In this document: in pieces, positions 708 through 9,931 of the stretch
Position numbering within the stretch: position 1 is the first letter of the stretch
Layout of the letters: every line of letters begins with the position of its first letter
IMG/VR virus record: IMGVR_UViG_3300044984_000353
Coordinates: 1 to 30,863 of that record
Length of the DNA: 30,863 nt
Source: a virus
Strand: one strand, 5' to 3'
Program-made: the position numbers and the translations under genes
Notes under the pieces: model-generated
The model's input: the letters and a program-made list of their open reading frames with translations, nothing else
Database searches by the model: none
Told to the model about the DNA's origin: nothing

Positions 708-1619
708 ATGGCAATTACCCGTTCCCAACTAGTAAAAGAACTTGAGCCCGGCCTGAACGCATTGTTCGGCTTAGAGTACAAGCGTTACGAAAACGAGCAC
801 GAGCAGATCTTCTCTATTGAGACTTCTGACCGTGCATTTGAAGAAGAGGTCATGTTGACTGGCTTCGGTTCTGCTCCAGTGAAAACTGAGGGTGCCGGCG
901 TTCAGTACGACACAGCCTTGGAATCTTTCACAGCTCGCTACACACACGAAACCGTTGCTATGGCTTTCGCGTTGACAGAAGAAGCTGTTGAAGATAACTT
1001 GTATGACCGCTTGTCTGGTCGTTACACCAAAGCTATGGCTCGTTCAATGAGCTTCACAAAGCAAGTAAAAGCTGCTTCTGTGTTGAACAACGGTTTCACT
1101 GGCGGCAACTATGCCGGCGGCGACGGCGTTGCATTGTTCTCTACAGCCCACCCAACTGCTTTGTCTTCCAACTATGCAAACACTCCCGCAGTGCCTGCAG
1201 ATTTGAACGAGACATCGTTGGAGCAAGCTTTAATTGACATCGCAGCGTTTATCGACGAGCGTGGCTTGAAGGTCGCTTTGACTGGTCGCAAGATGATTGT
1301 TCCTAAGGAACTGCAGTTCACTGCAGAGCGCCTGATGAAGAGCACTTTGCGTACTGGCACTGCTGACAATGATGTCAACGCTATCAAGTCTATGGGCATG
1401 CTCCCAGAAGGCTACTCTGTCAACCACTACCTGACAGACGTCAACGCTTGGTTCATCATCACTGATGCACCTAACGGCTTGAAAATGTTCGAGCGCTCAC
1501 CTATCAAGACAGCCTTTGAAGGCGACTTTGACACAGGTAACGTTCGTTACAAGGCTCGTGAGCGTTACAGCTTTGGCTGGTCTGACCCACGTGGCGCTTA
1601 CGGTTCGCCCGGCGCTTAA
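708..1619 (+). CDS. major capsid protein, Mu gpT-like
   Basis: This 303-residue protein is the likely shell subunit. It resembles the phage Mu gpT family of HK97-fold capsid proteins: an acidic N-terminal segment, a long helix-rich middle with SMSFTKQVKAASVLN-like sequence, then the conserved GVALFSTAHP motif at about residues 140-149, and a C-terminus rich in aromatic and Arg residues (RYKARERYSFGW). Length fits the family. The codon bias is smooth and favours common codons, as expected for a highly expressed protein. A strong intrinsic terminator follows 20 bases after the stop, and a structured RNA lies just beyond it. No scaffold or protease is visible inside the window. Confidence 0.88.
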   Translation: MAITRSQLVKELEPGLNALFGLEYKRYENEHEQIFSIETSDRAFEEEVMLTGFGSAPVKTEGAGVQYDTALESFTARYTHETVAMAFALTEEAVEDNLYDRLSGRYTKAMARSMSFTKQVKAASVLNNGFTGGNYAGGDGVALFSTAHPTALSSNYANTPAVPADLNETSLEQALIDIAAFIDERGLKVALTGRKMIVPKELQFTAERLMKSTLRTGTADNDVNAIKSMGMLPEGYSVNHYLTDVNAWFIITDAPNGLKMFERSPIKTAFEGDFDTGNVRYKARERYSFGWSDPRGAYGSPGA

Positions 1620-1686: not shown

Positions 1687-1755
1687 CCGGGCTTATCCGG
1701 TGCATCAAACAGTCCCGGCTGACGACATACGGATTGATGCGCCTAACTTGTATGT
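1687..1755 (+). ncRNA. structured RNA with pseudoknot, downstream of gpT
   Basis: Three helices can be drawn. P1 pairs 1687-1693 with 1711-1718 (7 bp, one bulged T). P2 pairs 1699-1708 with 1734-1743 (10 bp with one G-T wobble). P3 pairs 1725-1730 with 1750-1755 (6 bp). P2 starts inside the P1 loop and closes outside it, giving an H-type pseudoknot, and P3 interlocks with P2 in the same way. P3 ends just before the AAGGA ribosome site of the 1767 gene. From memory, a comparative-genomics motif named Mu-gpT-DE (downstream element of Mu-gpT genes) occupies this very position. I cannot confirm that this is the same family. It could act as a 5' leader control element or a stable 3' end. Confidence 0.55.
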
Positions 1756-1766
1756 AAGGAAAAATC

Positions 1767-2291
1767 ATGGCATCTACCACGTTTAATGGACCAGTTCGTT
1801 CCCAGAATGGCTTCCAGTCCATTACCAAAAGCGCTACTACTGGCGCAATCACTGTCAACGCTACATTTGGTGCTGCCACCAGCGTTACAGACCTGACAAC
1901 CACAAATCTGGTTTTTACTGACCAAAATCACCCCACAAAAGCCGCGCTTACCGCAACGGCTACCCTTACTGCAGCACAAGTTGCAACTGGCTACATCACA
2001 GTAACTTCAGCCTCTGCTGTAACTCTCACACTGCCTACAGGCACATTGCTTGGCGCGGCTCTTGGTGCGACCCAAGGTACTGTGTTGGATTTGTACATTG
2101 ACAACACCGCAAGCACAAGCTCAGGCGCTGTGACTGTGGCTGTAGCTACAAACGGTATCTTGTCTAGCGCTGCCGCTGACACCCCCGGCAGCTTTGGTGA
2201 CTTGACAATCCCTGTTGGTGCAACTGGCCTTGCCCGTTTCACCATCATGTTCTCAAGCGCAACCGCCTACGTGTTTACCCGTACTGCTTAA
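1767..2291 (+). CDS. putative head decoration or fibre protein
   Basis: This 174-residue protein is almost entirely Ala, Thr, Ser, Val and Gly, with very few charged residues, alternating in a pattern expected for beta-strands. It has no signal peptide, membrane helix or catalytic motif. An AAGGA site lies 6 bases before the ATG. It is the first gene after the terminator and structured RNA, so its expression may be set separately from the capsid gene. Similar low-complexity beta proteins next to capsid genes serve as decoration proteins or short capsid fibres in other phages. I do not recognise a specific family, so the function is inferred from composition and position. Confidence 0.6.
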   Translation: MASTTFNGPVRSQNGFQSITKSATTGAITVNATFGAATSVTDLTTTNLVFTDQNHPTKAALTATATLTAAQVATGYITVTSASAVTLTLPTGTLLGAALGATQGTVLDLYIDNTASTSSGAVTVAVATNGILSSAAADTPGSFGDLTIPVGATGLARFTIMFSSATAYVFTRTA

Positions 2292-2823: not shown

Positions 2824-3075
2824 ATGGCTAAATCTCCTGCTTGGCAGCGAAAAGAGGGCAAAAACCCTAAAGGGGGATTAAATGCTAAAGGCCGCGCTTC
2901 CGCTAAAGCGCAGGGGATGAATTTAAAACCCCCTGCGCCCAATCCTAAAACAAAAAAGGATGCGGCACGACGAGATTCTTTTTGCGCCAGAATGGGGGGC
3001 ATGGAAGGCCCAATGAAGGATGAAAAAGGACGTCCAACACGTAAAGCGTTGGCGTTAAAAGCATGGAAATGTTAA
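2824..3075 (+). CDS. small basic DUF6321-like protein
   Basis: The product is 83 residues from the ATG at 2824, strongly basic, and begins with the KSPAWQRKEGKNPKGGLNAKG signature that I associate with the phage family DUF6321. It continues with a Pro/Lys linker and the conserved SFCARM segment, and ends in an alternating Lys/Ala tail. Family members are small proteins of unknown role scattered through phage genomes. Its last 13 bases overlap the start of the endonuclease gene in another frame, which suggests translational coupling. A role in packaging or DNA condensation is conceivable but not shown. Confidence 0.75.
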   Translation: MAKSPAWQRKEGKNPKGGLNAKGRASAKAQGMNLKPPAPNPKTKKDAARRDSFCARMGGMEGPMKDEKGRPTRKALALKAWKC

Positions 3076-3479
3076 GTTGTACGCGCTGCCATGCAGAAAA
3101 ACTCGCAACCAGTGAGTTTTTTCCGTTACACAATAAAAAACGTAATGGATTAGATAGCTGGTGCCGTGAATGTCGGGCTACATATCGCAATAGCAATTGC
3201 CGTGGGAAATTTAGAGCAGTAATTTCAGATGAGAAATTACATGAAATAAAAACCACCGTCACAGAATGTGTGATTTGTGGATCAAATGATCCACTAGTTG
3301 TAGACCACGATCATTTAACAGGGCAAGTTCGTGGAATGTTATGTGGTCACTGTAATCGGGGCTTAGGTCATTTTAGGGATGATCCAGTGCTACTTGAGTT
3401 TGCGGCGCAATACTTGTATGCTTCAGCAGATCATCCGGCATGGGAAAAATACAAGAACAGTGAAAAGGTGGAGTGCTAA
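3063..3479 (+). CDS. endonuclease VII-type HNH nuclease
   Basis: This 138-residue protein has two parts. An N-terminal zinc-ribbon-like region carries C6-x2-C9 and C34-x2-C37. A C-terminal domain of the phage T4 recombination endonuclease VII type has C69-x2-C72, then VDHDH (D81-H84) and C94-x2-C97 followed by Asn98. These match the zinc ligands and catalytic Asp-His and Asn of the family, which resolves branched DNA before packaging. A second in-frame ATG lies at 3069. It overlaps the upstream gene by 13 bases and abuts the downstream ATG exactly. Bases 3121-3300 are only 38% G+C, lower than neighbouring virion genes (about 47-55% in sampled lines), which hints at separate acquisition. Confidence 0.88.
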   Translation: MEMLSCTRCHAEKLATSEFFPLHNKKRNGLDSWCRECRATYRNSNCRGKFRAVISDEKLHEIKTTVTECVICGSNDPLVVDHDHLTGQVRGMLCGHCNRGLGHFRDDPVLLEFAAQYLYASADHPAWEKYKNSEKVEC

Positions 3480-6898: not shown

Positions 6899-9800
6899 AT
6901 GGCGGCCTCCGGCTGGGGCAACGGTAGCTGGGGCGACTTTGGCTGGGGAGGGATTGGTGGAGCCGCAACAGGTGTAACTGCAACGGGTGCCACAGGCTCT
7001 GTTGCGACTGTTGTAACTGTCGCCCTCTCCGGTGTAGCTGCTTCGGGTGCTGTTGGTTCCGTTGCTGAAACCAGCAACATAGCGGAAAATGGCAATCAGG
7101 CTTCCGGCGCTGTCGGGTCTGTTGTTTCGTCACGCCTTGTTGCGCTGTCAGGTGTAGCTGCCGCTGGGGCCGTTGGATCAGTAGCCGAATCAAGCAACCG
7201 TACAGAAGACGGTAATCAAGCAAACGGTGCGGTAGGCTCCGTAACCGCTTCATTAACACGCGCCCTTACCGGCGTTTCCGCTTCCGGCGCTGTCGGTACA
7301 GTTACTGCTCTTAGTTTCAATGGTGCGGAACTTACGGGTGTAGCCGCTTCGGGTGCTGTTGGATCAGTCACTGAGACAAGCAGCATAGCGGAAGATGGCA
7401 ATCAGGCATCAGGAGCTGTTGGTTCTGTAGCTTCGTCTCGGGCAGTGGCTCTGTCAGGGGTCTTTGCTTCTGGTGCGGTCGGATCAGTCGCCGAAACCAG
7501 CACTGTCGCCTTGTCAGGGGTCTTTGCTTCTGGAGCCACGGGGTTGGTTGGCGTGGGCAGGAGCATATCTGGCGTATCCGCTTCAGGAGCTGTTGGATCA
7601 GTCACCGAGACAACCACCATCACAGAAGATGGTAATCAGGCAAACGGCGCTGTTGGATCAGTCGCTTCTTCGCGCTCTGTTGCTCTTACCGGAGTTTTTG
7701 CTTCTGGAGCAGTAGGCACTGTTGCTGAAACAAACTCTATTGCTCTTGCGGGCGTTGTTGCATCTGGCTCAGTAGGCTCCGTCAGTACTTCTCAGGCCAT
7801 TTCAGGTGTATCAGCCTCTGGCGCTGTCGGATCAGTCACAGAAACCAACAACCCAACGGAAAACGGCAATCAGGCAAACGGTGCTGTGGGTTCTGTTGCC
7901 TCCTCACGGTCAGTGGCTCTCACGGGCGTAGCCGCTTCCGGAGCAGTTGGCTCCGTTGCAGAGATAAGCTCTGTCTCCCTCACCGGGGTATCTGCGACTG
8001 GAGCAGTTGGCTTTGTTGGTACAGCGCAGGCCATCTCCGGCGTGGCAGCTTCCGGTGCAGTTGGGAATGTTACTGAGACAAATAGCCCTACAGAAGATGG
8101 TAATCAGGCAAACGGTGCTGTTGGGTCCGTCGCTTCTTCACGGGCTGTAGCCATCACGGGTGTATCTGCTTCTGGAGCAGTAGGCTCCGTGGCCGAAACA
8201 AGCACCATTGTTCTAACAGGTGTTGCCGCAGCAGGCGCAGTAGGGTCAGTTAGCACTTCTCAGGCCATATCTGGCGTGTCGGCCTCCGGCGCAGTTGGGA
8301 ATGTCACTGAAAGCAACGCCCGGACCGAGGATGGGAATCAGGCAAACGGCTCTGTTGGGTCGGTTGCTTCCTCACGGGCTGTAGCCCTTACAGGAGTATC
8401 AGCCTCGGGTGCTGTTGGTTCTGTGGCAGAGGTAAGCGCGATTGCTCTCACAGGTACTGGCGCATCGGGTGCTGTTGGATCAGTCAGCACTTCACAAGGC
8501 ATATCTGGGGTTTCAGCCTCCGGTGCAGTGGGGTCAGTCACAGAAACCAACAACCCAACGGAAAACGGGAACCAAGCAAACGGAGCTGTTGGGTCTGTCG
8601 TTTCATCTCGTTCAGTAGCAATTACAGGTGTTGTCGCTTCCGGCGCTGCCGGGTCTGTTACCGAGACAAGTTCTGTTGCTGTCACAGGGGCCGCTGCTTC
8701 TGGCGCGGTTGGAAGTGTTGCATTTACAGAATCTTTTGCGCTAACCGGTGTCTCTGCTTCTGGCAGCGCAGGCACTGTTATACCTTCCCGGTCAATTGCC
8801 TTGACTGGTGTTTCTGCTTCTGGCGCTGTGGGCACGGTAACAGAGGCAAATACAATTTCCTTAACAGGGGCAGTTGCCGCAGGTGCCGTTGGCTCTGTTG
8901 CCGAAACAAACACAATCAGTTTGTCTGGCACCGCTGCCGCAGGTGCAGTTGGATCAGTTACAGAAACTAATAGCCCTACCGAAGATGGCAATCAAGCAAA
9001 CGGGGCGGTCGGCTCTGTTGCTTCTTCACGTTCTGTAGCTATTACAGGCGTTGGGGCTTCCGGTGCGGTTGAATCTATGGTTGCCAGCACTAATCAAGGT
9101 GCAACCCTGACCGGCGTTGGGGCCTTTGGCGCGGTTGGTTCTGTGAGTACTTCTCAGGCAGCGTCAGGTGTGTTGGGTTCTGGCGCGGTTGGATCTATGA
9201 CTGCCAGCGTTGTTCAAAGCGCAGTTCTGACCGGTGTATCGGCTTCTGGCGCAGTTGGGTCGGTTACTGAAACTAACAGTCCTACAGAAAACGGCAACCA
9301 AGCTTCTGGTGCGGTTGGATCAGTGGGGAGCAGTGTCGTAATTGCTCTGACAGGCGTGGGCGCAGTAGGTGCAGTTGGCACAGTTGCACAAGGCAAGAGC
9401 ATCGGTCTTAGCGGCGTGGATGGCCAAGGCAATGTGGGCAGTGTTGCAAGAGGCGAAACGCTTTTACAACTGATTGGTGTAAACGCTGAAGGGCAGATAA
9501 CTTCTCCGGGCGTTAACCGAGACACCACGGTGTCAGGCGTGGCCGCAACAGGACAAGTAGGGTCAGTAGCCCGCTCTTTCCTTATCGGGCTTTCAGGCGT
9601 TAGCGCGCTGGGTACGGCTGGTTCTTTTACTATCCCTTTGGGTGCCGTTTCTGCGGCAGGAGCAACTGGGGCAGTCAACAGTGTCTTTGAAATTGCGTTG
9701 ACTGGTACGGGAGCAACTGGGGCAGTAGGCGCTGTAGAAGTAGCCTCTCGGTCTTTAGCGTTGACCGGAACTGTAGCAGAGGGCGCCACAGGTGAAGTAA

Positions 9801-9931
9801 TTGCGGTATATTGGAAACCAATAGATGACAGCCAAGACGCAAACTGGCAAAATGTCACTAATTCGCAGACGCCTGCTTGGACTACAGTCGCAACAACACA
9901 AACTCCCGAATGGGAAGAAATCGTAACTTGA
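6899..9931 (+). CDS. giant 20-residue-repeat fibre-like protein
   Basis: The 1010-residue protein is built from about 48 consecutive units of 18-22 residues around the core ASGAVGSV. Units end in LTGV or in EDGNQ. The N-terminus has a Trp/Gly segment (GWGNGSWGDFGWGG, residues 5-18), a motif also present in the tail nozzle at 14989. The last 35 residues hold three copies of an 11-residue pattern with Gln at position 3 and Trp at 7 (for example SQTPAW). There are no cysteines or charged clusters in the array. This composition suggests an elongated beta-solenoid or fibrous rod, with the N-terminus possibly anchoring to the nozzle and the Trp-rich C-terminus at the tip. The unit resembles repeats in uncultured aquatic phage proteins; the receptor-binding role is inference. 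Confidence 0.75.
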   Translation: MAASGWGNGSWGDFGWGGIGGAATGVTATGATGSVATVVTVALSGVAASGAVGSVAETSNIAENGNQASGAVGSVVSSRLVALSGVAAAGAVGSVAESSNRTEDGNQANGAVGSVTASLTRALTGVSASGAVGTVTALSFNGAELTGVAASGAVGSVTETSSIAEDGNQASGAVGSVASSRAVALSGVFASGAVGSVAETSTVALSGVFASGATGLVGVGRSISGVSASGAVGSVTETTTITEDGNQANGAVGSVASSRSVALTGVFASGAVGTVAETNSIALAGVVASGSVGSVSTSQAISGVSASGAVGSVTETNNPTENGNQANGAVGSVASSRSVALTGVAASGAVGSVAEISSVSLTGVSATGAVGFVGTAQAISGVAASGAVGNVTETNSPTEDGNQANGAVGSVASSRAVAITGVSASGAVGSVAETSTIVLTGVAAAGAVGSVSTSQAISGVSASGAVGNVTESNARTEDGNQANGSVGSVASSRAVALTGVSASGAVGSVAEVSAIALTGTGASGAVGSVSTSQGISGVSASGAVGSVTETNNPTENGNQANGAVGSVVSSRSVAITGVVASGAAGSVTETSSVAVTGAAASGAVGSVAFTESFALTGVSASGSAGTVIPSRSIALTGVSASGAVGTVTEANTISLTGAVAAGAVGSVAETNTISLSGTAAAGAVGSVTETNSPTEDGNQANGAVGSVASSRSVAITGVGASGAVESMVASTNQGATLTGVGAFGAVGSVSTSQAASGVLGSGAVGSMTASVVQSAVLTGVSASGAVGSVTETNSPTENGNQASGAVGSVGSSVVIALTGVGAVGAVGTVAQGKSIGLSGVDGQGNVGSVARGETLLQLIGVNAEGQITSPGVNRDTTVSGVAATGQVGSVARSFLIGLSGVSALGTAGSFTIPLGAVSAAGATGAVNSVFEIALTGTGATGAVGAVEVASRSLALTGTVAEGATGEVIAVYWKPIDDSQDANWQNVTNSQTPAWTTVATTQTPEWEEIVT
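7397..8566 (+). repeat. 234-nt (78-codon) tandem super-repeat, five copies
   Basis: The landmark GG(C/T/G)AATCAGGCA at the codons for Gly-Asn-Gln-Ala begins at 7397, 7631, 7865, 8099, 8333 and 8567: five exact intervals of 234 bases. Each period codes for four sub-units of 20+20+18+20 residues. Outside this block, the same landmark recurs at 7091, 7211, 8987 and 9293 with spacings of 120, 186, 420 and 306 bases. DNA copies differ mainly at third codon positions. Confidence 0.9.

Follow-up and report, generated by a model that had tools for sequence, protein, structure and literature searches.

The leader pseudoknot of phage T4 gene 32, through which gp32 controls its own synthesis, is the textbook precedent for autogenous regulation by an mRNA structure. 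The RNA described here is like it in being a pseudoknot in a phage mRNA 5′ leader whose product is needed in set amounts, but the T4 leader forms one simple pseudoknot and serves a single-strand DNA-binding protein. Leaders of ribosomal-protein mRNAs such as S15 and translational riboswitches such as the preQ1 and SAM-II classes are also compact pseudoknots adjoining or containing the Shine-Dalgarno (SD) sequence; from these our RNA differs in topology, in having no Rfam match and in preceding a gene for a phage capsid component. Another system, Mu-gpT-DE (Rfam RF03012), shares its genomic site, after a gpT-like capsid gene and before a cement gene ATG, with a similar upstream terminator and −10 box. 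Its model has 53 positions and consists of a hairpin within a CCUG/CAGG closing stem, with no crossing helices; the last helix also pairs SD bases. Mu-gpT-DE was reportedly described in a comparative RNA survey, and Rfam files it as "Gene; sRNA". A literature search found it named in one paper, without a function, and found no paper on a leader of the type studied here.

Our RNA occurs once in the window, by which we mean the whole 30,863-base IMG/VR virus record that was analysed. An earlier note on this DNA had proposed a pseudoknotted RNA at positions 1687 to 1755, directly 3′ of the gene for a gpT-like major capsid protein. Comparison with relatives bears out a conserved RNA of this kind at this site and indicates that it is almost certainly a cis-acting leader of the capsid cement gene that follows.

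Architecture of the leader in the window

The fold consists of four interlocked helices, P1 (5 bp), hairpin D (3 bp), P2 (10 bp) and P3 (6 bp), whose arms follow one another on the plus strand in the order P1a-P2a-D-P1b-D′-P3a-P2b-P3b, before the SD sequence and the ATG. P2 crosses both P1 and P3, and P1 crosses D. The 5′ arm of P1 (CCGGG, 1687–1691) pairs with CCCGG at 1714–1718, which follows U1713 and sits in the 6-nt loop of hairpin D; the helix is 86.7% paired in an alignment of 66 leaders. D itself is formed by CAG (1710–1712) and CTG (1719–1721), and P2 by GGTGCATCAA (1699–1708) and TTGATGCGCC (1734–1743), with one G-U pair; both helices show covariation. P3 joins ACATAC (1725–1730) to GTATGT (1750–1755) and is 90.9–93% paired. 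Directly after it stands the SD sequence AAGGA (1756–1760), 6 nt 5′ of the ATG at 1767.

The earlier note had drawn three helices of 7, 10 and 6 bp, with P2 crossing the other two and the last helix ending just before a ribosome site. The crossings and the P3/SD boundary (1755/1756) proved correct, all three helices are present and the lengths of P2 and P3 hold, but P1 has 5 bp and helix D had been missed. Pairs 6 and 7 of the longer P1 (1692-1712 and 1693-1711, with U1713 bulged) were paired in 42% of cases versus 38% in shuffles and were rejected as not conserved; instead of extending P1, bases 1710–1712 pair with 1719–1721 in hairpin D.

The unpaired bases at the junctions are nearly invariant. 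The A between P2 and D (1709) is invariant in 66 of 66 leaders. In the ACG that leads from D to P3 (1722–1724) the A and C are invariant and the G is present in 89%, and in the AGA junction between P3 and P2 (1731–1733), which reads GGA in the window, the first A is found in 98% while the G and final A are invariant. Because these bases are unpaired and yet nearly invariant, they suggest tertiary contacts in the core of the fold.

We coded the topology as a descriptor and scored it on 260-nt tiles over both strands of the whole window. The leader gave the top tile, with a score of 24.0 (the next best was 22.3), and none of 200 dinucleotide shuffles reached it, the best scoring 18.5. The single-sequence folding energy was uninformative (z −0.61), and the support for the fold is comparative.

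An alternative 5′ hairpin, P0, can be drawn between the CCGG sequences at 1687–1690 and 1697–1700. It cannot form together with P1 or the outer pairs of P2. It is 84.5% paired but shows no excess covariation in the aligned relatives, because CCGG is self-complementary. P0 could be a folding intermediate or a mere effect of the palindrome. A hammerhead-like CUGACGA at 1719–1725 was considered and rejected, given that the GAAA core is absent and the last A is unconserved.

Covariation among related leaders

Relatives were gathered through their capsid proteins in three viral-contig scans that were blind to the RNA. The next gene was found by its N-terminus (MxxTTFxGP), and the bases 5′ of its ATG were taken as the leader. 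This yielded 202 leaders, of which 162 were distinct; the sample consists mostly of uncultured contigs, and all of the evidence is comparative. A regular expression classed 28 leaders as Mu-gpT-DE, four of which turned out on reading to have the window-type fold. In a further 113 the window topology scored 20 or more on the descriptor; most of the others fit it with one mismatch. When leaders mutually less than 85% identical were compared with their shuffles, 26 of 31 outscored at least 199 of 200.

For the covariation analysis, 66 leaders less than 93% identical were picked by a sequence-only profile and aligned with MAFFT, which is blind to structure. Standard pairs occupied 92.0% of 1,578 cells, as compared with 69.4 ± 0.7% after shuffling; changes on both sides of a pair were seen in 352 cells versus 97.8 ± 8.6, and the covariation score was 0.622 versus 0.209 ± 0.009. 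Sliding the partner by 1–3 columns reduced pairing to only 28–42%. The seed profile had been made from leaders with high descriptor scores, so that some selection for pairing remains in these numbers, but the slid control and the diversity of P2 (48 distinct 5′ arms in the 66 leaders) argue that this residual selection does not explain the signal.

Double changes were found at every pair of P2 and P3. The inner eight pairs of P2 were 95.4% paired, with double changes in all eight, and the outer two 78.5%. Hairpin D was 99.5% paired, its middle pair varying among A-U, U-A, C-G and G-C. Double changes were scarcer in P1 than in P2 and P3, since CCGGG/CCCGG is common to many leaders, and they were under-counted because MAFFT misplaces some of the divergent arms; by eye, these include CTAGG/CCTAG, CCAAG/CTTGG, CTGGG/CCCAG and CTCAG/CTGAG. 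G-U wobbles outnumbered A-C mismatches by 88 to 32 in the 66 leaders, an excess that fits an RNA made from the plus strand. The earlier note had named a lack of covariation as the outcome that would speak against its structure; covariation among the relatives was strong, and on this comparative evidence the window pseudoknot is a real, conserved RNA.

The fold is, as judged from phage and contig sequences, common to many freshwater and marine phages. It stands before the cement gene in phage DSL-LC04 and in the Pelagibacter phages HTVC023P and HTVC027P. Both cultured members of the HTVC023P type that were checked carry the leader, and pelagiphages of this type alone reportedly account for about 7.6% of viromic reads (PMC12753301). 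Model R1 misses HTVC027P, which belongs to an AT-rich marine subclass, whereas the topology descriptor finds it; the subclass was therefore placed by descriptor and by eye. A DNA similarity search of cultured phages with the window sequence returned only terminator matches; the route through the proteins worked. The RNA pattern also found partial matches in genomes of Anaerolineaceae and Hydrogenophaga, which were attributed to chance and rejected.

The cement gene and exchange with Mu-gpT-DE

The major capsid protein gene (708–1619, plus strand) is of the phage Mu gpT type (PHROG 371 major head protein, E 3.8e-25), and its homologue in Roseobacter phage CRP-902 is annotated "Mu-like prophage major head subunit gpT". 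The RNA starts 67 nt after its stop codon. A terminator scan placed an intrinsic terminator with a 9-bp stem and a T-rich tail between the two (1639–1667), and 92 of 100 relatives have a terminator-like hairpin after their capsid gene. Downstream of the terminator lies a −10 box, TATATT (1672–1677), which is conserved in the relatives: at least four of six consensus positions were present in 97 of 100 versus 35 of 100 when shuffled, and the commonest spacing was exactly 9 nt 5′ of P1. A possible −35 element found with a position-specific profile, TTGTGC (1649–1654, 17 nt 5′ of the −10 box), is weak, since its consensus match was not above shuffles (19 versus 12 of 100); it lies inside the terminator hairpin, as if terminator and promoter were fused (1649–1677). 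The predicted transcription start is the A at 1684, 3 nt 5′ of P1, and 73% of relatives have A at that offset. The cement gene is predicted to have a separate transcript that would start about 3 nt before P1, behind the capsid terminator.

The gene that follows (1767–2291, plus strand) encodes a capsid cement or decoration protein of 174 aa with a conserved N-terminus, MASTTFNGPVRSQNGF; the assignment follows from its position and from an N-terminus like that of the DSL-LC04 cement protein. The same gene is annotated "cement protein" in that phage and "minor capsid protein" in Planktothrix phage Pag-Yong1. The structural model of the window protein was weak (pLDDT 66), and its sole significant PDB match was the Pa223 capsid spike (E 5e-4); a PDB sequence search with the cement and capsid proteins gave no useful match. 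The earlier note had considered the RNA a possible control point between capsid and tail expression. Instead of belonging to the capsid transcript, it serves as the 5′ leader of the gene that follows, and that gene specifies a capsid component rather than a tail protein.

The association of leader and gene is close. A search from the RNA sequence alone found 129 leaders; 127 of them had a cement-type N-terminus within 130 nt on their 3′ side, and the remaining two had, on reading, variants of it. When other genes intervene between the capsid and cement genes, as they do in L003, L041, L285, L338, L348 and others, the RNA is still found immediately 5′ of the cement gene. Of 19 phage genomes, 17 contained a single copy of the RNA. 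In 92 of 107 leaders the SD sequence starts 0 to 5 nt inside P3 or right after it; the AT-rich marine subclass has the AGG of this sequence within P3 itself. In the window, no terminator stands between the RNA and the cement ATG 11 nt later.

About 20 N-terminal residues of the cement protein (MAxTTFxGPVxSxNGF) are kept among relatives, and the rest is swapped for unrelated sequence, with lengths mostly of about 80–370 aa; in this respect the protein resembles a modular anchor for display on the capsid. Several other features of these genomes were noted. An endonuclease VII/HNH-like gene (3063–3479) lies amid the structural genes of the window, and relatives including L338 and L348 have nuclease-like genes between the capsid and cement genes, as does Caulobacter phage RW after its capsid gene. 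In phage RW neither leader directly follows the capsid gene; a homing-endonuclease-like gene occupies that place. A 1010-aa protein of degenerate GVxASGAVGSV repeats is encoded at 6899–9931 of the window.

The earlier note had likened the position of the RNA to that of Mu-gpT-DE. The position does correspond: RF03012 matched seven relatives (L079, L372, L249, L290, L271, L254 and L229) above its gathering score at the same site, with 52–72 bits, and Roseobacter phage CRP-902 carries Mu-gpT-DE there. The window RNA is not a member of that family, however. A search of Rfam that included RF03012 left the window without a match, both at the gathering score (49 bits) and up to E = 10, and the leader lacks the CCUG/CAGG stem as well as the two nested helices of the RF03012 consensus, CCUGACAG...CUGAC...GACAGGAG; it has four helices and three kinds of crossing. 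The lack of an Rfam match and the different topology rule out its identification as Mu-gpT-DE.

Leader types have changed repeatedly among close kin. On a quick tree of 121 capsid sequences they need nine changes, at least three of which are forced by well-supported branches, and the capsid proteins of L353 (Mu-gpT-DE) and L346 (window fold) are 98% identical. The same cement N-terminus is also found behind Mu-gpT-DE leaders. Because one leader replaces the other at the same site within close kin, the two folds probably share one role. By eye, the leaders before the cement gene in L216 and L221 (GTAGGGCATCACAA...TTGTGCAAGAGG) have neither the window fold nor Mu-gpT-DE and are possibly a third type; model R2 matches L221 weakly.

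Possible modes of action

As the RNA would form the very start of the cement messenger, it probably controls the amount of cement protein. One interpretation, to which we lean by a little, is that the knotted leader sets cement translation and so the dose of cement relative to capsid protein; that translation control is its main effect we consider evenly balanced, and the leader perhaps also affects the stability of the mRNA. Transcription would begin at the promoter just after the capsid terminator, about 3 nt before P1, and the leader would fold as it emerges: hairpin D would form first and its loop then be caught by P1, P2 would pin both halves, and P3 would close last. With its 3′ strand adjoining or including the SD sequence, P3 would narrow or block the ribosome landing site. 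In the window, occlusion would be steric and partial, as most of AAGGA lies outside P3. The amount of cement would thereby be fixed relative to capsid protein, either by a constant throttle or by a gate worked by a factor that recognises the knot. The C-terminal domain of the cement protein is unlikely to be that factor, because near-identical leaders precede unrelated C-terminal parts: among 206 leader pairs at least 90% identical, 69 precede cement proteins without similarity in residues 31 onward.

The main rival, which we regard as a lesser but serious possibility, is that the knot guards the mRNA from 5′-end-dependent decay, so that a high-copy structural protein is made late, with no gating of translation. 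5′ stem-loops are a known precedent for protection of bacterial mRNAs, and a tightly knotted 5′ end, a predicted start 3 nt before P1 and a separate transcript behind a terminator are in keeping with such a role; a 5′ structure that served only to stabilise the mRNA would hardly look different. Against this, P3 and its adjacency to the SD sequence are kept despite sequence change, and a crossing fold with five invariant unpaired bases is maintained where a plain hairpin would suffice. Protection could also act together with translation control.

A more specific form of gating appears doubtful. Here the knot would be bound by the conserved N-terminal segment of the cement protein or by the capsid protein, and cement translation would thereby be repressed, or released, much as T4 gp32 acts on its own leader. 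The number of cement proteins must match that of capsid proteins, and the approximately 20 N-terminal residues are conserved across all leaders, but the same residues stand behind Mu-gpT-DE leaders of a different fold. In phage GP4, 540 copies each of cement and capsid protein are present (PMC9698820).

Translation control by a metabolite is very improbable. A compact pseudoknot flush against the SD sequence is typical of translational riboswitches, but a structural gene expressed constitutively would be an odd choice of target, the conserved unpaired bases (A, AC(G), (A)GA) are so few that they leave little room for a ligand pocket, and the leader matched no riboswitch family in Rfam. That the RNA acts in trans as a small RNA, or belongs to the 3′ UTR of the capsid mRNA, as the Rfam type of RF03012 at the same site might suggest, is barely credible and largely refuted by the terminator that precedes it in most relatives, by the lack of one before the cement ATG and by its travelling with the cement gene when genes intervene.

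These results add an RNA family absent from Rfam 15, located in one of the commonest capsid modules of freshwater and marine viromes, and they recast Mu-gpT-DE, for which no function is known to have been described, as one of two probably interchangeable cement-gene leaders. Should the leader fix the ratio of cement to capsid protein, virion assembly would have a control point made of RNA. One could further envision, although we think it unlikely, that leaders of this new class respond to capsid assembly, sensed as free capsid or cement protein, by gating translation of the cement gene, and that the unrelated Mu-gpT-DE fold could stand in for them. If that reading is true, abundant aquatic phages, those of SAR11 among them, would use two RNA folds for one task at a single genomic site.
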